A stretch of 64,000 nucleotides of DNA from positions 4,077,001 through 4,141,000 of the forward strand of contig NZ_CP060201.1 of the NCBI RefSeq assembly GCF_013407925.2, read 5' to 3'. The notes under the pieces were generated by a model, which worked only from the letters and a program-made list of their open reading frames with translations, made no database searches and was not told the DNA's origin. This document shows positions 32,847 through 46,902 of the stretch, in pieces. The translations under genes were made by a program, and so were the position numbers. Position 1 is the stretch's first letter, and every line of letters starts with the position of its first letter. Source of the stretch: Pseudomonas protegens (lineage in GTDB: Bacteria > Pseudomonadota > Gammaproteobacteria > Pseudomonadales > Pseudomonadaceae).

Positions 32847-33388
32847 TCACAGGGCGCCGCGGTGCAACACCGCGGCGCTCCTAGATAAGCGTTGAGCGGC
32901 GTGCTCTAGCAATCGACTAATGGGTATGGGGTCATTCCCTGAGGGAATGCGCGATGGCCCCTGGCTGCCATGGGCGCAGGCCGGGCCGATTGGCGCAACG
33001 GGCATTCCAGAGCGCTCGCCGCAGGGGCCAGTGGAGGCTGTCGGCGGTGTGCGGCAAGGCGCTTGCGAGTGCTGGAGCGGCGGACCCTTTGGGGCAGATT
33101 CGTACTTGAACTAAGGCTGTTTCTTGGCGGGCGGCGGAAAGCGCCAATAGTGGCTGGAAGCCACCTTTTTCGGCGTGTGTAATGTCGCCGTAGTGGCACT
33201 TGCGCGGCGGGTTTCAGCGGGGTGTCGATTGCCTTGCAAAATCCCGGTCCGGCAATTGTGTAACAGACGGCAAATCGCTAATCTGCGGCCTTTCCGACGC
33301 CCGCAGTCGCTGGGCCGTTTTCCGAATGTTTGCAGCCGCGCCGAGGATCTGGCGCCAGGGTTTCCCCATGCATGGCAGGACGCAGTAC
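32847..33388. other. Intergenic region between BCCT gene and magA, with perfect hairpins
   Basis: No convincing gene is seen in these 542 bases. They hold a perfect 11-bp hairpin with a 3-base loop (GCGCCGCGGTG-CAA-CACCGCGGCGC arms, 32854-32878) in the BCCT leader, and a CATTCCC-TGA-GGGAATG hairpin near 32934-32950. The divergent promoters of BCCT and the mag operon must lie here. TTGTGT (33256) and TAATCT (33279), spaced 17 bases, are a weak candidate for the mag promoter. Confidence 0.6.
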
Positions 33389-34180
33389 ATGCGCGTTTTA
33401 TCCTCCCTTCTGCTGACCTTGCTGCTGGCCGGTATGGCGCTCGCCGAGCCCTCCGCCGAGCTGCAGGAACCCCTGGCCGGCTGGCGCTATTCCGGCTTGC
33501 TGGACCGCACCGAGCAGGACCGCGTGGCCTACCCGACGCCCCCGATCGATCGTGGCATCCAGCGCAACCGCACCCTGATCGAGGGCCAGCTCAAGGCCAT
33601 CGGTCATCTGCGCCAGCCCCATAGCCTGTCGGTCAACGGCAACCCGCTGAACCTCTACACCGACGAACAGGGCCGCTTCGCCCGCCCTTATGCGTTTGGC
33701 GCCGGTTCCAACAGCGTCGAAGTGCGCAGCTCCGAGGGCAAGTCCCTCAAGCGCGTGCAGTTCTACGAAGCCAATCAGAACAAGACGCCGCCGCGGATCC
33801 GCGTGGTGCTGGGCTGGGACGATCCCAAGGCCGAGCTGGACATGCACATCATCACCCCGGACGGTCAGCACGCGTTCTTCGGCCACCCCGGCCTGACCAA
33901 TGGCGGCGGCCTGGACCCGGACGGCGTCGACGGCCCGGGCCCGGAAATGTTCACCATGACCGCGCCGCTGCGCGGCACCTACCTGATCTACGTGAACTAC
34001 TGGGGCAATTTCGGCAGCGGCGGGTACAACTTCGACGAAGGCAGCAATCAGAACGAGGTGATCACCTCGCAGATCAACCTGATCCTTAACGAAAACACCG
34101 TCGATGAGAAACGCGAGACCTTTATCGTGCCCATGCGGGCCATCGGCGACCTGTTGCTGGTCAAGTCTTTCAACTATTGA
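33389..34180 (+). CDS. magA: MagA, DUF2135 periplasmic protein
   Basis: A 263-residue secreted protein, first gene of the six-gene mag operon. Signal peptide MRVLSSLLLTLLLAGMALAEPS. The DUF2135 core reads RIRVVLGWDDPKAELDMHIITPDGQHAFFG, then PEMFTMTAPLRGTYLIYVNYWGN and ETFIVPMRAIGDLLLVKSF. It is a paralogue of MagF at the end of the operon. In P. aeruginosa, MagA was found in an inner-membrane complex with MagD, MagB and MagF. AGGA lies eight bases before the chosen ATG; in-frame 33368 is possible. Confidence 0.87.
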   Translation: MRVLSSLLLTLLLAGMALAEPSAELQEPLAGWRYSGLLDRTEQDRVAYPTPPIDRGIQRNRTLIEGQLKAIGHLRQPHSLSVNGNPLNLYTDEQGRFARPYAFGAGSNSVEVRSSEGKSLKRVQFYEANQNKTPPRIRVVLGWDDPKAELDMHIITPDGQHAFFGHPGLTNGGGLDPDGVDGPGPEMFTMTAPLRGTYLIYVNYWGNFGSGGYNFDEGSNQNEVITSQINLILNENTVDEKRETFIVPMRAIGDLLLVKSFNY

Positions 34181-34217: not shown

Positions 34218-35930
34218 ATGAGCGAAAACACCGCATCCCCGGCGGCCGGCGTGCCCGGCACTGAACAACCCGCCAGCAAGCGGCGCTGGCCGGTCCTGGT
34301 CATGGGCCTGTGCCTGGTGGCGGCCGCGATCACCGGCGTGGGCTGCAAGCCCAAGAGCACGGTGGCCGAGCTGGCCGGCGACAAGCTGGGCCTGAGTCGC
34401 CCCGACGGGCTGCTGGAAACCCATTCCCTGACGCAACTGCCCAAGGACCTGCTGGCGGTGCCTTTCCTCAAGGACACCCTGACCGAGGACTTCGTCTTTT
34501 ATTACCAGGCCCACGCCGACCGCTTGGGGCTGATCGGCAGCCTGCGGCGGATCATCTACGAGCATGACCTGAAACTGCAGGACAACCTGATCGAGCAACT
34601 GTTCGACCAGCCGGCGGATGTGGCGCTGTGGCGTGGCGCCGACGGGCGTCTCAAGGACTTCCTGCTGGTGATGGACCGCGGCGGTCTGGCCAAGCTGCTG
34701 GAACCCCTGGCCAAGGTCGCCCTGGACGATACGCAATTGAGCAAGCTGGCCGAGCTCAAGGTCGGCGGCGATGCGGTGACGCTGTACCAACTGAACTACA
34801 ACGCCGGCAAATCCCTGGCGTTCGCCTCTTACGGCGACAAGCTGGTGGTGTTGTCCAACCCGGGCAAGCTGTACGACCTGAGCCAGGGCGCCGACGATGA
34901 ACACGGCGCCGTTTCCACGGCCGCGCTGGAGGCGCTGCTCAAGGGTGACAAGCTGTTCCCCGAGGCCTTCGGCCTGGAGGCGCGCAAGCCTGAGGTGCAG
35001 CAGCGGCTGGCGGTCAACGCCGGTGTCTTGGCCATGGGTTACCAGCGCTTCATCCCCAACTTCGCCGGTTTGCGTTTCGACATGGACGGCCAGGGCTGGC
35101 ACAGCTACCTGGCCCTGCAGGAGCAGGACAACCAGCCGGACTTCGACTTCAAGCCGATCTGGCAGGCCATGCCCATGGGCGCCAGCGCCTGCGTTGCGCT
35201 GCCTCTGGCGGCGCAGCAGCAGAAGCCGCTGCTGGTCAAGCTCGGTGCCGAAGAGGCGGTGGCCACCACCCTGACCGAACACATGGCCGGTACCGCCGGG
35301 CTGTGCTGGTACGCCGACTCGCGGCTGTACACGCCGCTGCTGGTGGCCAGCCTCAAGGACAAGGACAACGCCAAGCTCGATGCGGACCTGGGCAAGCTGT
35401 TCGGTTCCATGGTCGGGGCCCGGGAAAGCAAGGTACCGGAGCGCATCTTCCCCGTGGTCGAGCAGCAGAACGGCGAGGTGCACCAATGGCAGCGCCAGGT
35501 CAGTTCCAACTTCGGCCAGTACCCGGCCAAGGAGGCCAAGGACCCGCAAGCCATCACCGGCCGCGCCTTCATGCAGGTCAGCCTGGCTCGCCATGGTTCG
35601 ACCCTGGTGTTCTCCCTGGACGACAAGCTGGTGACCAAGGCCCTGGGCACCCTGGACAAGCGCTTCCCGCCCCTGGCCGACGTGGTGCCCAAGGATGTGC
35701 TGATGCCGGTGTACCTGGGCCCGCAATCCCTGGCGCAGTTGATCCAGCAGGAAACCTTCGACAGCCTGCCCCAGGACATGGAGCCGGTGTTCAACAACGC
35801 CGCGCAAACCTACCTGGTGCCCAAGCTGCGCACCTTGGGCGGTTACGGCAAGTACGCCCTGACCCTGCCTGAAGGCAGCGAGCCCAACGGTCACTGGCAA
35901 TGGCTGCCGCTGCAATGGCGCGCGCTGTGA
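34218..35930 (+). CDS. magB: MagB, DUF2138 inner-membrane-anchored protein
   Basis: A 570-residue protein with a short cytoplasmic N terminus, one membrane helix at about residues 24-43 ([20 protein letters not shown]), and a large periplasmic part. DUF2138 has no known enzymatic role; I see no catalytic motif. It corresponds to E. coli YfaA and P. aeruginosa MagB, reported as a MagD complex partner. The helix would anchor the macroglobulin complex in the inner membrane. Its stop overlaps the chosen magC start (GTGA). Confidence 0.86.
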
Positions 35931-36574
35931 GTGCATGGCGCAAGAGTCTGTCCAGCCTTGGCCTGTTGGCCCTGTTGCTGAGCAACGCCGTGGGCGCGAC
36001 CCAGGCGCCGCCGTTGGACGTGCAGCAGTCCCAGGTGTTTCGTGCCTGGTTCGTGCGCATCGCCCAGGAGCAACTGAGCCAGGGGCCGAGCCCGCGCTGG
36101 TATCAGCAGGACTGCGCCGGGCTGGTGCGCTTTGCCGCCAACGAAGCGCTCAAGGTCCACGACAGCAAGTGGCTGCGGGCCAACGGCCTGTCCAATCGCT
36201 ACCTGCCGCCGGAGCTGCAACTGAGCGAAGGCCAGCGCGGCCTGGCCCAGCAGTGGCAGCAGGGCGGCGGGCAGACCGGGCCCTACGTCAATGCGATCAA
36301 GCTGATCCAGTTCAACAGCCATCTGGTCAGTCGTGACCTGGGCCAGGCGCGCCCCGGCGATCTTTTGTTCTTCGACCAGGGCGACGACCAGCACCTGATG
36401 ATCTGGATGGGCCGCAACATCGCCTATCACACCGGCACCACCACCCCCACCGACAACGGCATGCGCTCGGCCAGCGTGCAGCAACTGATGACATGGAAGG
36501 ACACCCGATGGATACCCGACCCCGCCAACCCCAACTTCATCGGCATCTATCGACTGAACTTCCTCACCCAATGA
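35927..36574 (+). CDS. magC: MagC, DUF1175 protein with NlpC/P60-like catalytic motifs
   Basis: A 215-residue secreted protein (E. coli YfaT counterpart). The GTG start at 35927 gives a clean signal peptide ([23 protein letters not shown]) and couples to magB; ATGs at 35900 and 35915 are alternatives. Visible motifs mirror NlpC/P60 cysteine peptidases: [10 protein letters not shown] with Cys63, [19 protein letters not shown] with His156, and IAYHTG with His168. I infer a peptidoglycan or peptide endopeptidase fold. No activity has been shown that I know of. It precedes magD with ATGA overlap. Confidence 0.83.
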
Positions 36575-39500
36575 GCGAATCGCGTATGTGGCGTTTTCTG
36601 TTTCGACTGACTGTTGTTCTGACCCTCGTGGCCCCCGCGAGCCTGGTCAATGCCGAAGACTCGGTGCCGTCCAGCGATTACGCGGCGGTCTCCGGCGAGA
36701 GTTTCTTCCTCCTGGCCGACAGCAGCTTTGCCAGCGACGAGCAGGCCATGGTGCGCCTTGAGGCCCCGGGCCGGGATTACCGGCGCTTTCGCATGGAACC
36801 CTACGGCGGCGCGGACATCCGGGTGTACCGGATCAACCAGCCGCTGGACTTCCTCAAGCGCCAGAAGAACCTGCACCGGGTGGTCAGTGACGGCCAGTTC
36901 AAGGGCGAGGGGCTGTCCAACACCCTGGCCTACCTGTGGGACAACTGGTATCGCAAATCCCGCCGGGTGATGCAGCGCGCCTTCTCCTACGAGTCACGCA
37001 AGCAGGTGACCGAGGAGGTGCCGGAATTGAAGGTCGGCAATTCGATGCTGGCGCCGACGCCCTATGACGCCCAGCCGCAATTCGCCCTGATCCCGGGGCT
37101 GCCGCTGGTGACCCAGTTCCGTTATCCGCTGTGGCAGGCCAAGCCGATCCAGCCGCCGGCCGGGGTTGACCTGTCCGGTTCCTCCAGCCAGTTCATCAAC
37201 GTCGCGCCGGGCAACGTCTATATCCCGCTGGGGCAACTCAAGCCGGGCCTGTACCTGGTGGAAGCCCTGGTGGGCAAGTACCGCGCCACCACCATGGTCT
37301 TTGTTTCCAACACCGTGGCGGTGAGCAAGATTGCCGGCGACGAGCTGCTGGTCTGGGCCGCGGGCAAGCATGAAGGCAACTCGGTGCCCAAGGTCAACGT
37401 GCTGTGGACCGATGGCCTGGGCGTGATGAACAGCGGCGCCACCGACGAACAGGGCCTGGTGCGCCTGAAACACGTCAGCCCCGAGCGCTCCTACGTGATC
37501 GGCGAGGACCAGGAAGGCGGGGTGTTCGTCTCCGAGAACTTCTATTACGACAGCGAAATCTACGACACCAAGCTTTATGCCTTTACCGACCGGCCGCTGT
37601 ATCGCCCGGGGGACTGGGTATCGCTGAAAATCGTCGGCCGCGAGTTCAAGAACGCCCGGGATTCGGTGCAGCCGGGAGCCGGGACGGTGAATGTCAGCGT
37701 GCTGGATGCCGCGGGCACCACGCTGCAGAACCTGACCCTGAATCTGGATGCCAAGTCCGGCGCCCAAGGCCGCTTCCAACTGCCGGAAAACGCCGTGGCC
37801 GGTGGTTATGAGTTGCGTTTTGCCTACAAGGACCAGGTCTACAGCAGTGCCTTCCGCGTGGCCGAATACATCAAGCCGCATTTCGAGATTTCCCTGAGCC
37901 TGGCCAAGGCGGATTTCAAGACCGGCGAGCCGGTGAAGGGCAATCTGGTGCTGCTCTATCCGGACGGCAAGCCGGTGGCCAATGCGCGCCTGCAACTGAG
38001 CCTGCGGGCTCAGCAACTGTCGATGGTGGACAACGAGCTGCAGTACATGGGCCAGTTCCCGGTGGAACTGACCAGCGCCGAACTGACCACCGACGCCAAG
38101 GGCAGTGCCACCCTCGATCTGCCGGCGGCCAGCAAGCCGAGCCGCTACATGCTCACCGTGTTCGCCAGCGATGGCGCCGCATACCGGGTCAAGACCACCA
38201 AGGAAATCCTCATTGAGCGTGGCGCGGCAAGCTTCAGCCTGAGCGCGCCGCAGCGTTTCAGCGCCGTGGGTGACAAGGTCCAGTTCAGCTACGCCAACCA
38301 GAACACCAGCGAGCAGAGCAAGAACGTCAAGCCCAACCGCTACAGCTGGGTGCGCCTGGAAGACCAGTCCACCGGCGAGGGCAAGCTGGGCGAGGCCGAC
38401 AAGGGCTTTGCCCTGGCCTTCGAGCGGCCCGGCACCTACAACCTGACCCTGAAGGACGAGCACGATCGGGTCCTGGGCGGCACCAGCCACTCGGTCACCG
38501 GCGAAGGCGTGAAAGCGGTGCCGGGCACCGTGGAAATCGTCCTCGACAAACCCGAGTACCAGGCCGGTGACGAAGCCCTGGCGCTGATCACCTTCCCCGA
38601 GCCGATCAACGATGCGCTGCTGTCGCTGGAGCGCGACAAGGTCGAGGCCACGGCGCTGCTGTCCAAGGGCGGTGACTGGCTGAAAGTGGAAAAACTCAGC
38701 CCTACCCAATACCGCGCACGGGTGCCGGTGAAGGACAACTTCGCGCCGAACCTGACCTTCTCCGTGCTCTACACCAAGGGCGGCGAGTACAGCTTCCAGA
38801 ACGCCGGGATCAAGGTGCTGACGCCGCAGATCGATGTGGCGATCCACACCGACAAGGACAAGTACCAGCCGGGTGACCTGGTCACCGTGGACCTGTCCAC
38901 CCAGTTCGCCGGCAAGCCGGTGCCGGCGCACCTGACGGTCAGCGTGGTGGACGAAATGGTCTACGCCCTGCAACCGGAAGTGGCGCCGAGCATCGACCAG
39001 TTCTTCTACCACCCACGGCGCAACAACGTGCGCACCAGCGCCAGCCTGTCGTTCATCAGCTACGACGTGGCCCTGCCGGGCAGCCCCACGGCCCCGGGCA
39101 AGGCCAACCGCAGCGAACGCGGGGTCAAGGTGCTGGAGCGGCCACGGCGTGAAGACGTCGACACCGCTGCCTGGCAGCCGGAACTGGTGACCGACGGCAG
39201 CGGCAAGGCGCGTTTCACCTTCCGTATGCCCGACTCCCTGACCCGCTGGCGCATCACCGCCCGGGCCATCGCCGATGACGGCCAGGTGGGGCAGAAGAAG
39301 CAGTTCGTGCGCTCGGAAAAAGCCCTGTACCTGAAGTGGAGCGGCCCGACCCGTTTCCGCGCGGGCGACAAGCCGGACCTGGGGGTGTTTGTCTTCAGCC
39401 AGTCCGAGCAGACGGCCAAGGCCGAGCTGGTGGTTCGTTATGCCGGGGAGTCCCAGCGTCTCCCGCTGACCTTGAACAGCGGGATCAACTACGTGGCGCT

Positions 39501-41148
39501 GCCGGCCATTGCCCCGGGCAATGGCGAGTGGAGCGCCGAGCTGGTGCAGGGCGGCAAGACCGTGGATGCCCTGGCCGTGCGCCTGCTGAGCAGCGCGGCC
39601 GGTTGGCAGACGCTACAGACCCAGAGCCTGGACGTGGCTGGCACCAGCACGCCGTTGGGCCTGCCGGCCGATGCCACGCAGATCCGCCTGCGCCTGGACG
39701 ACAGCCCGCAAGTGCTGTTCCGTTCGGCCCTGGATGACCTGCTGGAATACCCGTATGGCGGCGTCGAGCAGACCGCCAGCCAACTGCTGCCATTGAGCGT
39801 TGCCTACCCGGCGCTGGCCAGCAATCCGCAGGTTCGCGATCGCTTGCGCCTGATGATGCAGAACAGCCGTCTGCGCCTGGTACACATGGCCGGGCCGGAA
39901 GCGGCGTTCACCTGGTGGGGCGAGGATGCCGATGCCGACGCCTTCCTCACCGCTTACGCCTATTACGCCGATTGGCATGCCAGCAAGGTCATGGACCTGA
40001 ACCTGCCGCCGGAGCACTGGCAGCGGGTGCTGGAGGTCTACGCCAAGCAGGCCGGCAACACGCCGTTGCTGCAACGGGCGCTGATCCTGTCTTTTGCCCG
40101 TGAGATGAACCTGCCGATCGCCACGCTGGTCAGGGGCCTGATGGACGATCTGGCCAAGGCCGGCAGCGGTCCGGCTGACAGCGTGGACGCCGGCGGCAGC
40201 GACAGCCTGGTGATGGCAGACCCGGATTCGGCCCTTGGTCTGGCCAGTGCCCGGGTATTGACCGCGGCCCTGGCGCGGGACGCCAAGGTCACCCCGCCAC
40301 CGGCCTTCGTGGCGCAGTTGGAGGCGGCACAGCAGCAGGTCGACATCAGCTCGCAGCCGTTCGCTCAGGCAATGAATCTGTCCTTGAAGCCTTTCGATCA
40401 AGCGACGGCGCGCGCATTGCTGCAACGCCTGCTGCCATCGCAACCGACCCTGGACCGGGCCCTGGCCCTGACCTGGCTGCAGCGCAGCGTGACTCAGGCA
40501 GCACCGGCCGTGGCCCTGAACCCGGGGCAGGGCTGGCAACCGCAGCAGGGCGCCAGCGGTGAACGCTACTGGCTGTGGCAGGGCCCGCAGGTGCCTGCGG
40601 TGCTGACCCTGGATCCGTTGCCGGAGCGGCCGTTGCGCGCTTCGCTCAGCTACCAGAGCCAGCAGGCGGCGGGCACGCCATTGCCGGTGAACATCACCCG
40701 TCGTCTGTTGCGCCTGGTGCCGGGCGACGAGGCGTTCACCTTCAAGCTGGAACCGGTGGGCAACAAGCCGATCGCCAGTGACGGCCTGTACCTGGACGAA
40801 GTGATCATCGCCAACGAGAGCAAGCGGCCGCTGCTGTACGGCATGCTCGAAGTGCCGTTGCCGCCGGGCGCCGATGTCGAGCGCACCACCTGGGGCATCA
40901 AGCTGGCCGGTCCTGCGGGTACGGAAGCGGCGTCCCTGGAGAAGGCCCGCTTCGAACCCGGGCAGATGAGCTACGCGGTGCCGCTGGATGCCTTGAACGA
41001 CAGCAGCGAGGTGCGTCTGCGGCACTTGATCCGCTTCTCCCAGAAGGGCCAGTTCAACTTGCCTGCGGCGCGTTTCTACCAGGTCTATGCACCGGAGCAG
41101 CAGGCTCAGGAACGCACGCCGGCACTGGGTCAGGTCACGGTCAAATAA
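36571..41148 (+). CDS. magD: MagD, bacterial alpha-2-macroglobulin without thioester
   Basis: 1525 residues; signal peptide [10 protein letters not shown]...SLVNA, not a lipoprotein. Macroglobulin domains, a bait-like region, and the A2M segment around residues 900-960 ([33 protein letters not shown]) are clear. At residues 1062-1067 the protein reads YGGVEQ where thioester members have YGCxEQ, so Cys is replaced by Gly and no thioester can form. P. aeruginosa MagD is known to bind elastase and to be cleaved and inner-membrane associated. Length fits. It likely traps foreign proteases in the periplasm. Confidence 0.93.
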
Positions 41149-41149
41149 C

Positions 41150-42793
41150 ATGACGCGGTGTTGGGCCTGGTTGTGCCTGTGTCTACTCCCTGGGCTGGTG
41201 ACAGCCCAGGACGAGCCTCTGCGCCTGGCCTGGAAAACCGCCCCGGACAGCGAGCTGGTGAGCCTGAGCAAGACCCAGGTGCTGGCTCGCGAGCCGTTGC
41301 CGCAGGACCTGCAGGCGCCCCTGGGCAGTGTCTGGAAGCTCTTCGTCTATGCCTGGTTGGTGGACACCGGCGCGCAAGAGCCGGCCTATGCCTGCCAGGG
41401 CAAGTCCAGGGACGAGGTCTATTGCTGCACGAGCGGTGGCAGCATCGCCCGGGACCAGGCCCTGGTCCGTTCCTGTGGGTTGTACTTCGAGCCGCAACGC
41501 TTGCAGTTGTCCAGCGCCGACTGGCGCCAGTACTGGCAGGCCCGCCATGCGCCCGAGTGGTTGCGCGACCTCGACCGCCTGCAGCCGCAGACCCGGGTGC
41601 CGGTGGCGGAGCTGTTGCAGGTGCTGGCGCAGTTGCCGGCCCAGGAGACGGCGCGCCGGGTGCTGCTGGATGTGCTGCTCAACGCCTCCGATGGCGCGGT
41701 GTTGGGAGCCTTGGGCGGGCGCCTGCGGGTCAAGACCTGGAGCTGGCTGGCGGACCAGGACCCGCAGTCGCGCCAGGGCGGCTTTGCCGGGTGGCTGGTG
41801 GACGGCACGCCGCTGTGGGTGGGTGGACGAGGCACCAGTCAGCGGGTGTTGAAGGATTACGCCCAGGTTCTGGACCAGGTGCTGCCGCAGCGTCCGGCGC
41901 TGGACAAAGGCCGCTGCGTGGAGGTCGGCCTGTTCTCCCGCTATCCGCTCAAGAGCGTCAGCCAGAATGCCCGCGCCGCCAGGCCAGGTGCCCTGCAAGG
42001 GGATTACCGGGTGGAGTTCGCCAATGGCAATCAATTGGATATCCACAGTGGCGGCGAGCTTTTCCTGCAAGCCAACGCCTCGGCCCTGCAACTGGTGGCC
42101 CGTCTGGACCGCGAGGAGTACGTGGCCCGGGTGCTGCAGCGCGAGGCCTCCAGCGAACCCCGGGAAGCCGCCAAGGCCCTGGCCGTGGCGATCCGCACCT
42201 ATCTGTTGCAGAACGCCGGGCGCAGCGGCGAATGCCTGAGCATCGACGACAGCAGCAATCGCCAGCGGGTCGCGCCGCGTCCGGCCACCGCCGAGGCCCG
42301 GGCCATCGCCGCCTGGACTGCCGATCTGGTGCTGGCCGGAACCCAGGTCACCTACCATTCGGATCTGCAGGCACCGGACAAACTGTCCTGGCAACAGGCC
42401 GTGGAACAGGCCCGCGCCGGCCAGGGCTACGACGCCATCCTGCTTCATGCTTACCCGCGGGCCAGCCTCAGCCGCTGGGACAATCCGCAGGCTTCCTGCG
42501 AACCCTTGCCGGCCGCTCAAGAGTGGCTGCTGAACCAGCGTCGACGCTGGCGTCAGCCCCTGGAACAGGAAGTCGGCTACAACGAAATCAGCCAGTTCGC
42601 CGTGTGCCGCCTGAGCTTCGGCCGGCCCTACGTCGACCGCGAACGGCAACGCATCTACGTGCGTGGCGTGCTCTCGCTGCAAGATCGCCTCGACCTGACT
42701 CACGAATACCTGCACCTGGCCTTTGAGGCGCATCCCAACGGCCAGGATGAAACCTACATCGAAGGGCTCGCCCGTCATCTTTTATTGGAATAG
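41150..42793 (+). CDS. magE: MagE, DUF2300 protein with PBP-like, SpoIID-like and HExxH segments
   Basis: A 547-residue secreted protein (E. coli YfaQ counterpart), signal peptide ending LVTAQ. Three parts are visible. Residues about 55-240 resemble penicillin-binding/beta-lactamase folds: PLGSVWKLF (SxxK, Ser60/Lys63), RSCG at 107-110 (SxN-like), and RVKTWSW at 193-199 (KTG-like). Residues about 318-405 resemble SpoIID: REEYVARVLQREASSEPREAAKALAVAIRTYLL, with Glu332 at the SpoIID catalytic position. HEYLH at 518-522 is an HExxH metal motif. Function is inferred as peptidoglycan-directed. It starts one base after magD. Confidence 0.82.
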   Translation: MTRCWAWLCLCLLPGLVTAQDEPLRLAWKTAPDSELVSLSKTQVLAREPLPQDLQAPLGSVWKLFVYAWLVDTGAQEPAYACQGKSRDEVYCCTSGGSIARDQALVRSCGLYFEPQRLQLSSADWRQYWQARHAPEWLRDLDRLQPQTRVPVAELLQVLAQLPAQETARRVLLDVLLNASDGAVLGALGGRLRVKTWSWLADQDPQSRQGGFAGWLVDGTPLWVGGRGTSQRVLKDYAQVLDQVLPQRPALDKGRCVEVGLFSRYPLKSVSQNARAARPGALQGDYRVEFANGNQLDIHSGGELFLQANASALQLVARLDREEYVARVLQREASSEPREAAKALAVAIRTYLLQNAGRSGECLSIDDSSNRQRVAPRPATAEARAIAAWTADLVLAGTQVTYHSDLQAPDKLSWQQAVEQARAGQGYDAILLHAYPRASLSRWDNPQASCEPLPAAQEWLLNQRRRWRQPLEQEVGYNEISQFAVCRLSFGRPYVDRERQRIYVRGVLSLQDRLDLTHEYLHLAFEAHPNGQDETYIEGLARHLLLE

Positions 42794-42796
42794 GCC

Positions 42797-43615
42797 ATGA
42801 AACTTCCTGCTCCCCCGGTCCTCCTGTTCCTTTGTGGAATGTTCAGCCTGCCCATGGCCCTGGCCGACAGCGGCATCCGCCTCGACACCCCCAAAGGCGG
42901 CTGGCGGACCCGCGCCGTCGATGGCGAGCAATACATTCAGGAGGTCAACTACCCGGCTTCCTCGGTCAACACCCCTCAGGGGCAGGCCGATACCGCGCGC
43001 ATTCGCGGGCAGATCAAGGGCGCGCCCAAGGCGAGCAAGGAGCCGGGCAAGCTGATCGTCAACGGCGTCAGCATGCCGCTCAAGTTCGACGAGCAAGGCG
43101 GTTTCGACCGGCCTTATTCCTTCCCCAACGGCAGCAACAGCGTGGAGGTGCGCAGCCCGGACGGGCAGCAGCGCAAGCGCGTGCAGTTCCTCAATACCGG
43201 CGGTGGCGTGACCCCGCCCAAGTTGCGCGTGCTGCTTTCCTGGGACAGCGACAACACCGACCTCGACCTGCACCTGGTGACCCCCGATGGCGCGCACATC
43301 TGGTACGGCGATCGCGTGGCCCCCAACGGCGCGACCCTGGACGTGGACGTGACCACCGGCTACGGCCCGGAGATCTTCTCCATGCCGGCGCCGCTCAAGG
43401 GCCAGTACCTGGTCTACGTGAACTACTACGGTGGCGGTTATCGCAGTGATGACGATGAAGACGGCGGCCAGGAAAACGCCGTGCAGCCGCTGACCACGGC
43501 CCAGGTCACGGTGATCACCGAGGAAGGCACGCCGGATGAGAAGAGCGAGTCGTTCATCGTGCCGATGCGGGCGCCCGGGGAGCTGACCCTGGTGCGCAGT
43601 TTCAGCTATCCATGA
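42797..43615 (+). CDS. magF: MagF, DUF2135 periplasmic protein
   Basis: A 272-residue secreted paralogue of MagA. Signal peptide ends SLPMALA. DUF2135 core: LRVLLSWDSDNTDLDLHLVTPDGAHIWYG, an acidic turn DDDEDGG, and ESFIVPMRAPGELTLVRSFSYP. The DxDxDLH-type acid cluster could bind calcium (inference). P. aeruginosa MagF is a MagD complex member. It begins three bases after magE and ends the operon. Confidence 0.87.
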   Translation: MKLPAPPVLLFLCGMFSLPMALADSGIRLDTPKGGWRTRAVDGEQYIQEVNYPASSVNTPQGQADTARIRGQIKGAPKASKEPGKLIVNGVSMPLKFDEQGGFDRPYSFPNGSNSVEVRSPDGQQRKRVQFLNTGGGVTPPKLRVLLSWDSDNTDLDLHLVTPDGAHIWYGDRVAPNGATLDVDVTTGYGPEIFSMPAPLKGQYLVYVNYYGGGYRSDDDEDGGQENAVQPLTTAQVTVITEEGTPDEKSESFIVPMRAPGELTLVRSFSYP

Positions 43616-43667: not shown

Positions 43668-43719
43668 TACGAGCGCCCGGCGTTTGCCTTGCAATGAAGC
43701 ACCATTCATAGGCAGGGAA

Positions 43720-44817
43720 ATGCGCAACATGGGTGCTTTTCAATCGTGGTTGAAGTGCTGTGTGGTGGCCGGCAGCTGTGTCTCCGGCCTGGTGATGGCC
43801 GCGGGCGCCGACGGCTTGCAGCGGATCAAGGTGGATCTGGTGGCGCCGCCCCAGGTGCATGCCCATGAACAGGTGGTCAGCGGACCGCCTAAGGTCGTGC
43901 AGTTCCGCATGAGCGTGGAAGAGAAAAAGATGGTGGTGGACGATGAGGGCACCACCCTGCAGGCCATGACCTTCAACGGCTCCATGCCCGGTCCGACCCT
44001 GGTGGTGCACGAGGGCGACTACGTCGAACTGACCTTGAGCAATCCGGCCAGCAACAGCATGCCCCACAACATCGATTTCCATGCCGCCACCGGCGCCCTG
44101 GGCGGGGCCGCGCTGACCCAGGTCGTACCAGGCCAGGAGGTGGTGCTGCGTTTCAAGGCCGATCGTAGCGGCACCTTTGTCTATCACTGCGCGCCGTCGG
44201 GAATGGTGCCCTGGCACGTGGTCTCGGGCATGAGCGGAACCTTGATGGTGCTGCCGCGCGATGGCTTGAAAGACCCTGCCGGCAAGCCCTTGCACTATGA
44301 CCGGGCCTACACCATCGGTGAGTTCGATCTGTATATCCCCAAGGACCAGGACGGGCATTACAAGAGCTACCCGGACCTGGCCTCCAGCTACCAGGACACC
44401 CGTGAAGTGATGCGCACGCTGACCCCGAGCCATGTGGTGTTCAACGGTCGGGTCGGTGCTCTGACCGGAGCCAATGCGCTGACCGCCAAGGTCGGGGAAA
44501 GCGTGCTGTTCATCCACTCCCAGGCCAACCGCGACAGCCGTCCGCACCTGATTGGCGGCCATGGCGACTGGGTCTGGACCACCGGCAAGTTCGCCAATGC
44601 CCCGTTGCGCAATCTGGAAACCTGGTTCATCCCCGGCGGGTCGGCGCTGGCCGCGCTCTACACCTTCAAGCAGCCGGGCACCTATGTGTACCTCAACCAC
44701 AACCTGATCGAGGCCATGGAGCTGGGGGCCCTGGCTCAGGTCAAGGTCGAAGGCACCTGGGACGATGACCTGATGACCCAGGTAAAGGCCCCCGGGCCCA
44801 TTGTTCCGGCCAAGTGA
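43720..44817 (+). CDS. nirK: Copper-containing nitrite reductase
   Basis: A 365-residue periplasmic two-domain cupredoxin reducing nitrite to nitric oxide. Ligands visible: MPHNIDFH (His116 type 1, Asp119 catalytic, His121 type 2), [13 protein letters not shown] (His156 type 2, Cys157, His166) and Met171 in SGMSG. The second domain has [19 protein letters not shown] and YLNHN. The signal region is short and Cys-bearing. Start 43720 versus 43729 is unsure: AGGG is close to the first, far from the second. No nor or nos genes are near, so it is isolated. Confidence 0.94.
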
Positions 44818-46064: not shown

Positions 46065-46520
46065 TCAGTCGCTCTGATCGGTGGTGGAAAGCACTTCGTC
46101 GATCTTCCAGCAGCCCTTGTCCTTGATCATCCGCACATCGACGATCTGGGTGGTGTCCGGGGTGCTGCCCAGCGTGACCTGCTCCTTGGCGCTGGAGCCC
46201 TGGATCTGCGGCTCGCTGACCTTGATCTGGGTCAGCCACTCATCCATGTAGTCCTGGGCCTTGAGGAAATAGTCCTCTTCCAGGCCATCGGGGCTGGCCA
46301 TCTGCTTTTTGATCTTGGCGATCAGCGAGTCGGAGACGTACTTCTTCATCTCCGGGACGCTGTCGGTGATCGGGTCCTTGTCTTCGCTGAAGGTTTGCAG
46401 GTACCAGCTGTAGAACGCCTGGGTGACAGGCTTGGGCGAACTGGCGCAGTCGGCCAGGGCCAGTGGTTGATGCAGGGCGACGGCGGCCGCGGCCAGCAGC
46501 GAGCAGAACAGCATTCTCAT
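46065..46520 (-). CDS. DUF3828 secreted protein, likely immunity partner
   Basis: A 151-residue protein with signal peptide (cleavage near ALADCASS) and two Cys in the mature part (CASS near the start, KGCWKIDEV near the end) that could form a disulfide. DUF3828 features: KPVTQAFYSWYLQTF and VDVRMIKDKGCWKIDEV. It lies 10 bases after a leaderless amidase-like gene on the same strand. This is the usual arrangement of a type VI peptidoglycan amidase effector followed by its periplasmic immunity protein. Immunity role is inferred from context only. Confidence 0.8.
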   Translation of the reverse strand: MRMLFCSLLAAAAVALHQPLALADCASSPKPVTQAFYSWYLQTFSEDKDPITDSVPEMKKYVSDSLIAKIKKQMASPDGLEEDYFLKAQDYMDEWLTQIKVSEPQIQGSSAKEQVTLGSTPDTTQIVDVRMIKDKGCWKIDEVLSTTDQSD

Positions 46521-46530
46521 GGAAGACCCC

Positions 46531-46902
46531 TTACGGATGGCGATAGATTTTGTAGGCAGGCTTCTGCACCCGATAGGAATGCCCTGGATAGAAACCGTGC
46601 AACTGCTTGAAGTCTGACACCCAAAGTGAGCCGTTGAACATCGCCATATGGCCGTGGGGGTGGCCGGGAATGGGCTGGATGATCACCACATCGCCCGCCG
46701 CGGGCGTCTGACCAGCTGGTTGCTCGATAAAGCCGGCCGAGGTCAGGGATGAGCCAAAGTCCTTGGCCGAATGCTTCCTGTGCAGAATCACCCCACCGCC
46801 ACCGGCTTCGATCGCCTGGCGAGTGTAGGCCGCACAGCGTCCGGTGCTGCCCGCGTGGGCATGCGCGTTCAAGTGATCGATAGCGGCTTGTTTATTCCAC
46901 AT
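46531..46902 (-). CDS. CHAP/NlpC-like amidase, candidate type VI effector
   Basis: A 123-residue protein lacking any signal peptide. A cysteine amidase layout is visible: GRCAAYTRQA (Cys23), TPAAGDVVII (residues about 66-75), HPHGHMAMFNG (His85 most likely) and WVSDFKQ (Asp97). Size and layout fit small Tae-type type VI peptidoglycan amidases such as Tse1. It is followed after 10 bases by a secreted DUF3828 gene. No secretion gene (vgrG, hcp, tss) is in the window, so export would use a distant apparatus. Family assignment is inference. Confidence 0.76.
   Translation of the reverse strand: MWNKQAAIDHLNAHAHAGSTGRCAAYTRQAIEAGGGGVILHRKHSAKDFGSSLTSAGFIEQPAGQTPAAGDVVIIQPIPGHPHGHMAMFNGSLWVSDFKQLHGFYPGHSYRVQKPAYKIYRHP

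Follow-up and report, generated by a model that had tools for sequence, protein, structure and literature searches.

The 64,000-nucleotide stretch of the Pseudomonas protegens genome analysed here (the window; contig NZ_CP060201.1, positions 4,077,001 to 4,141,000) carries a mag operon, and its magE gene encodes a protein that Pfam files under the domain family DUF2300. MagE almost certainly has three domains, as judged by fold searches: an SxxK-serine-enzyme fold (module 1), a SpoIID-type domain (module 2) and a minimal gluzincin-like domain with an HExxH...ExxxE arrangement (module 3). The protein is probably exported, judging from its sequence. We favour, at a probability of roughly 35–40%, its reading as a wall-docked or wall-gated periplasmic metallopeptidase serving the Mag system, for which we infer secretion, zinc binding, proteolysis, glycan cleavage, gating and MagD as the substrate; the chance that MagE has its functional core in the metallopeptidase is a little less than even. 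MagE would act in the periplasm on a Mag partner, most simply the alpha-2-macroglobulin MagD itself or a protein on which cleavage of MagD depends. Recognition of stem peptides and denuded glycan would fall to modules 1 and 2, and a damaged or remodelled wall would either position the protease there or switch it on. The reading draws on the invariant catalytic residues of modules 2 and 3, the SpoIID matches and the fold searches; on the presence of module 3 alone in six operons, the linkage of magE to magD and the altered MagD of a magE deletion; and on the protection that magD affords against peptidoglycan-degrading effectors of the type VI secretion system, the phenotype of yfaQ deletion in Escherichia coli and eight invariant cysteines.

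Residue conservation was followed in an alignment of 318 distinct full-length sequences, comprising 75 of 80 loci, 117 of 120 and 118 of 120 listed proteins, MagE, its E. coli orthologue YfaQ and six further sequences. Three loci were left out as partial or multi-segment (L055, L064, L091) and two others by length or identity, and listed proteins were dropped if they fell outside 500–620 amino acids or were identical to another. The two protein lists hold the best 120 of 883 and the best 120 of 909 matches, and because only the best-ranking matches are listed, Pseudomonas, Burkholderiaceae and Massilia-type sequences dominate the set. Identity to MagE ranges from 42 to 92%, with 190 of 317 sequences below 60%. 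S60, S108, C109, G110, K195, T196, E332, H518, E519, H522, E534 and E538 are invariant (318/318), as are the eight cysteines, and K63 is kept in 317 of the 318 sequences. The key residues are also kept in an alignment of eight sequences with members from E. coli, Paraburkholderia, Massilia and Pseudomonas.

An earlier note on this DNA had described MagE as a fusion of a part like penicillin-binding proteins (PBPs) and a SpoIID-like part, with an HExxH tail. The motifs on which that description was built, SVWK, SCG, KTW, the SpoIID glutamate and HEYLH, are real, follow one another in the order given there and have invariant or nearly invariant key residues. Three elements of the description stand: a PBP/serine-beta-lactamase fold, a SpoIID domain whose catalytic position is occupied by glutamate, and an HExxH motif. 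We encountered neither of the outcomes that the note had named as grounds for abandoning its proposal, the lack of both folds and unconserved motifs. The combination of PBP and SpoIID is not new, since it is in print for YfaQ (PMC12282094); what the present analysis adds is the recognition of the metallopeptidase-like part as a module in its own right, kept more widely than the other two, and of the BlaR1-like pairing.

HEYLH is the centre of a gluzincin-like domain of its own and not a mere tail motif: module 3 has HExxH and, according to the fold searches, a gluzincin fold. E534 and E538, candidates for an acidic third zinc ligand, sit at the start of a predicted helix spanning residues 534–546. 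Of the tail proposed earlier, the conserved motif stands, but it belongs to a separate domain. DUF2300 matches occur in 16 of 398 Pseudomonadota genomes, of which nine are full-length (the window's own included) and six cover the C-terminal part only; the remaining match, in genome G009, was set aside as doubtful (E 7.2e-4, below the cut-off, five stops). The six short-form genomes lie outside the Gammaproteobacteria, the class of the window, and their mag operons (L011–L016, L162–L167) encode only the HExxH domain in the place of MagE. Their frames span 134–237 amino acids, and the genes about 125–145 where a start is seen; the four that begin with methionine are hydrophobic near the N-terminus (12-residue maxima 1.15–2.39), and the other two lack a clear start. 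The short gene is followed by magF in all six cases and preceded by magD and magC in all four of the six contigs that reach so far, with magB in three of these four, the fourth contig ending first. The six genomes contain no MagE part beyond residues 434–546 and no SpoIID gene at the Pfam threshold (0/6; one genome is 78% complete). One named relative belongs to a Magnetococcales bacterium. Because the short-form operons carry module 3 alone, the metallopeptidase-like domain is the part of MagE present in every operon examined.

The putative metal site is retained along with the domain. A nine-row alignment of module 3 (A4), composed of the window's domain, the six short genes and the proteins P0243 and P0244, represents eight distinct proteins, P0243 being contained in L013, and its L015 row is a shortened stretch. 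The metal-site residues and C486 are kept in 9/9 rows and C450 in 8/9, the ninth being the shortened row. Such conservation argues against MagE as an inactive scaffold, in which three retired enzymes would bind peptidoglycan and help MagD to fold or localise, as MagC may: an enzyme that has lost its activity will usually have given up residues of this kind in some lineages, whereas H518, E519, H522, E534, E538 and E332 show no loss in any of the 318 full-length sequences. We regard the scaffold as unlikely, even with the non-canonical SCG and KT[WYF] motifs of module 1, the description of DUF1175/MagC in PMC10318531 as NlpC/P60-like, inactive and peptidoglycan-binding, and the chaperone role that PMC5764988 suggests for MagE all pointing towards it.

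For module 1, VIA-align ranks class D beta-lactamases and BlaR1 sensors highest among the solved folds. Besides the fold, the order and spacing of the motifs fit class D: S60 and S108 lie 48 residues apart, and S60 and K195 135 residues apart, close to the 47–50 and 137–147 of nine comparators, which are termed class D-like from their motifs, were chosen with a loose motif pattern and include one with KSG. The SxV and KTG motifs of class D are absent, as is the SxxK/SxN/KTG triad of PBP transpeptidases, SxN and KTG being replaced; residue 197 is Trp, Tyr or Phe in 196, 83 and 39 of the 318 sequences and Gly in none. The PBP-like first domain of the earlier note accordingly survives as an SxxK fold nearest to class D/BlaR1, but without the SxN-like and KTG-like motifs read into SCG and KTW. 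Pfam lists no PBP family at E≤10 for 8/8 MagE members, most matches above 0.1 being filtered out, and a search of the window's own genome finds five places for the PBP transpeptidase family (PF00905), magE not among them.

Profile comparisons with hhalign add little to this assignment, which rests on the fold searches. Module 1 (residues 24–255) against 34 PBPs gave a probability of 21%, P 0.001 and a score of 34.6, which is not decisive alone; the stretch reported brings motifs 1 and 2 into register, whereas motif 3 lines up only under forced full-length alignment. The remaining 17 of 18 comparisons scored 11.3–18.2. Two of these were true tests, and both failed. The nine class D-like proteins reached 18.2 with a reversed control at 18.1, the alignment of the three motifs not being significant; an S11/class A set reached 16.0, this set being flawed by wrong frames in L123 (80 amino acids), L129 (116 amino acids) and probably L113; a comparator set of five PBPs likewise contained the wrong-frame L107. 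With SxN and KTG replaced, ordinary transpeptidation or carboxypeptidation by MagE is doubtful, and with two of the three active-site motifs non-canonical, the label 'penicillin-binding' is unproven for the protein.

Module 2 shows the predicted SpoIID fold. The Pfam SpoIID family (PF08486) matches residues 311–373 of MagE at 34.2 bits against a cut-off of 23, and the family is matched by 8/8 members of alignment A1 at E≤10 (best 3.6e-09); the region also gives a profile match to structure 4rwr (E 0.0011). The stricter NCBIfam model SpoIID_LytB (TIGR02669) is not reached, at 23.5 of 83.3 bits, and precomputed Pfam lacks SpoIID in 18 of 120 Massilia-type homologues among the matches listed. The residue with which E332 aligns, E101, is the catalytic residue of Clostridioides difficile SpoIID (PMC6221140).

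The invariance of E332 speaks for regarding MagE as a cell-wall repair or remodelling enzyme, the view of the earlier note and of the YfaQ paper, in which the SxxK and SpoIID modules would act on peptidoglycan and the metallopeptidase would be an endopeptidase or a regulator. PMC12282094 (mSystems 2025) describes YfaQ as transpeptidase-like plus SpoIID-like, reports a Sec signal and proposes that the protein takes part in the turnover or assembly of peptidoglycan; deletion of yfaQ gives wider cells, and its profile shows links to genes including mepS, mepK and nlpI. In E. coli K-12 MG1655, yfaS, the magD orthologue (L026, 4799–9403), is annotated as a pseudogene, and yfaA, yfaT, yfaQ and yfaP as coding. 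On this annotation the yfaQ phenotype is probably not exerted through MagD (the strain of PMC12282094 was not compared), which favours a wall enzyme, as do the NlpC/P60-like character of MagC and the protection that magD gives Pseudomonas aeruginosa against VgrG3 and, to a limited extent only, against Acinetobacter baylyi Tae1, by a route that PMC12663445 leaves unknown. Such an enzyme is nevertheless on the doubtful side: it agrees poorly with the replaced SxN and KTG motifs and with six operons that have the metallopeptidase-like part only, in genomes free of a Pfam SpoIID match, and it does not explain how deletion of magE affects MagD. This effect, reported in PMC5764988 for strain PAO1, comprises an altered amount of MagD and extra higher-mass MagD forms; the same paper finds no stable MagE–MagD complex, and views MagE as cytoplasmic, possibly a chaperone or a help in signal-peptide processing.

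In the main text of PMC12282094 the words metallo, zinc, macroglobulin and YfaS are absent (supplements not covered). In open-licence papers, likewise without their supplements, no description was found of a separate metallopeptidase-like domain in MagE, of module 3 standing alone as MagE in six operons, or of an SxxK-sensor fold and a gluzincin joined in one MagE chain as in BlaR1/MecR1. Among the open-licence papers covered, SpoIID together with macroglobulin turned up only in a cyanobacterial proteome.

The coordinates of magE, its modules and motifs, and the neighbouring mag genes are as follows.

Table 1. Features of magE and the mag operon, in positions of the window.
Feature	Position	Strand	Basis
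magE coding sequence (547 amino acids + stop), orthologue of E. coli yfaQ	41150..42793	+	Open reading frame; Pfam DUF2300 and SpoIID
Putative Sec signal peptide, residues 1–19	41150..41206	+	Cleavage after VTA judged by eye
Module 1, SxxK-serine-enzyme fold, nearest class D beta-lactamase/BlaR1 sensor (predicted; residues ~20–249)	41207..41896	+	
SxxK motif SVWK, residues 60–63 (S60, K63)	41327..41338	+	Ser 318/318, Lys 317/318
Second motif SCG, residues 108–110, replacing SxN/SxV	41471..41479	+	318/318
Third motif KTW, residues 195–197, replacing KTG	41732..41740	+	KT 318/318
Module 2, SpoIID lytic-transglycosylase-like domain (residues ~253–446)	41906..42487	+	Pfam, profile and fold searches
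Glu332, aligned with Glu residue 101 of SpoIID 5txu	42143..42145	+	318/318
Module 3, minimal gluzincin-type metallopeptidase-like domain (predicted; residues ~447–547)	42488..42790	+	Fold searches; separate gene in L011–L016
HEYLH, residues 518–522 (putative zinc ligands H518, H522; general base E519)	42701..42715	+	318/318; 9/9 rows of A4
E534xxxE538 in the following helix, candidate for the third zinc ligand	42749..42763	+	318/318; 9/9 rows of A4
magA open frame (DUF2135), start position not fixed	33200..34180	+	
magB (DUF2138)	34218..35930	+	Pfam
magC (DUF1175, NlpC/P60-like)	35900..36574	+	Pfam and homologue comparison
magD open frame, type II alpha-2-macroglobulin	36493..41148	+	Pfam
magF (DUF2135)	42797..43615	+	Pfam

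Export of MagE is made probable by its signal-peptide-like N-terminus, with a 12-residue hydrophobic maximum of 2.27, and by the eight invariant cysteines, which fit an oxidised periplasmic protein. By Pfam, the neighbours of magE are DUF2138, DUF1175, alpha-2-macroglobulin and DUF2135 genes, with an additional DUF2135 frame upstream; this order agrees with the mag operon of PMC5764988, from which the names magA–F are taken. The magD stop occupies 41146–41148 and the magE ATG follows one base further on, at 41150; the true start of magD is probably ATG 36571, overlapping the magC stop. Among the 80 loci, magD adjoins magE in 74/74 with upstream sequence, a DUF2135 gene follows directly after magE in 79/79 testable ones, and magB, C, D and F occur together in 71/71 with more than 8 kb upstream. 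The two DUF2135 genes at the operon ends, magA and magF, match one another, and in L072, L082, L092 and L168 paired DUF2135 genes stand side by side after magE. MagC contains an NlpC/P60-type stretch, DCAGLVRF, and a conserved histidine. NLPC_P60 is matched by 10/10 MagC homologues at E≤0.1 (best 4.7e-06), the window's MagC lying 0.6 bits below the cut-off, and the family has a solved structure, 7bk8. Downstream of the operon, on the same strand, lies a multicopper oxidase gene (43684–44817, three Cu-oxidase Pfam matches). On the minus strand, a small CHAP-like protein (46531–46902; 20.7 bits, cut-off 26) is encoded beside a DUF3828 protein (46065–46520) with a signal-like N-terminus, judged by eye; about 2.5 kb past the mag operon, the two genes look like a wall-amidase effector/immunity pair.

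Pfam DUF2300 (PF10062) matches MagE twice (140.6 and 126.7 bits), at residues 84–206 (41399–41767) and 410–530 (42377–42739), both stretches cutting across predicted domains. A tandem repeat was considered and rejected, as the two stretches fail to align with each other (hhalign probability 0.2%) and differ in predicted fold; the family may need splitting. A single-sequence search of the Protein Data Bank with MagE gave no match, and 16 pattern stretches in viral contigs included no relative.

A fused SxxK/SpoIID/gluzincin protein encoded beside magD breaks the question of how bacterial type II macroglobulins function into three active sites that can each be tested separately, and it is itself a candidate explanation of the disturbance of MagD that follows magE deletion. 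YfaQ, the closest described protein (54% identity to MagE), shares the transpeptidase-like and SpoIID-like parts, the Sec signal and an envelope phenotype; it is termed bipartite in PMC12282094, against the three modules of MagE. In the pairing of type I alpha-2-macroglobulin with PBP1C (PMC5764988), a macroglobulin gene likewise adjoins a gene for a penicillin-recognising fold, but the eight MagE members have no PBP family listed. Of the SpoIID/SleC lytic transglycosylases, MagE has only the core (~195 residues), within a three-module Pseudomonas protein. Module 3 resembles the minigluzincins selecase and abylysin in its fold of about 100 residues with HExxH; it differs in the conserved cysteine pair C450/C486 and the ExxxE helix, where minigluzincins use a third histidine (PMC6925264), and in its setting, either as part of MagE or as a gene next to that of an alpha-2-macroglobulin.

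BlaR1 and MecR1, like MagE, hold a class D-like SxxK sensor fold and a gluzincin-like fold in one chain, and MagE would add such a pairing outside these receptors. A soluble BlaR1/MecR1 counterpart, with acylation or peptide binding at S60 switching on the gluzincin of the same chain, is quite improbable. Only slightly better placed, and still distinctly unlikely, is a soluble periplasmic analogue responding to wall damage and not to antibiotics, in which a class D-like SxxK sensor and a SpoIID domain that reads or cuts glycan would detect abnormal peptidoglycan and turn on the gluzincin. Cleavage of MagD or another Mag partner would then arm the macroglobulin complex against attacks that degrade the wall, and the short protease-like gene of the six other genomes would represent the ungated form. 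Unlike BlaR1/MecR1, MagE has a SpoIID domain between the two folds, the reverse domain order, altered motifs and, in the models, no obvious membrane-embedded M56 domain (no transmembrane predictor was run).
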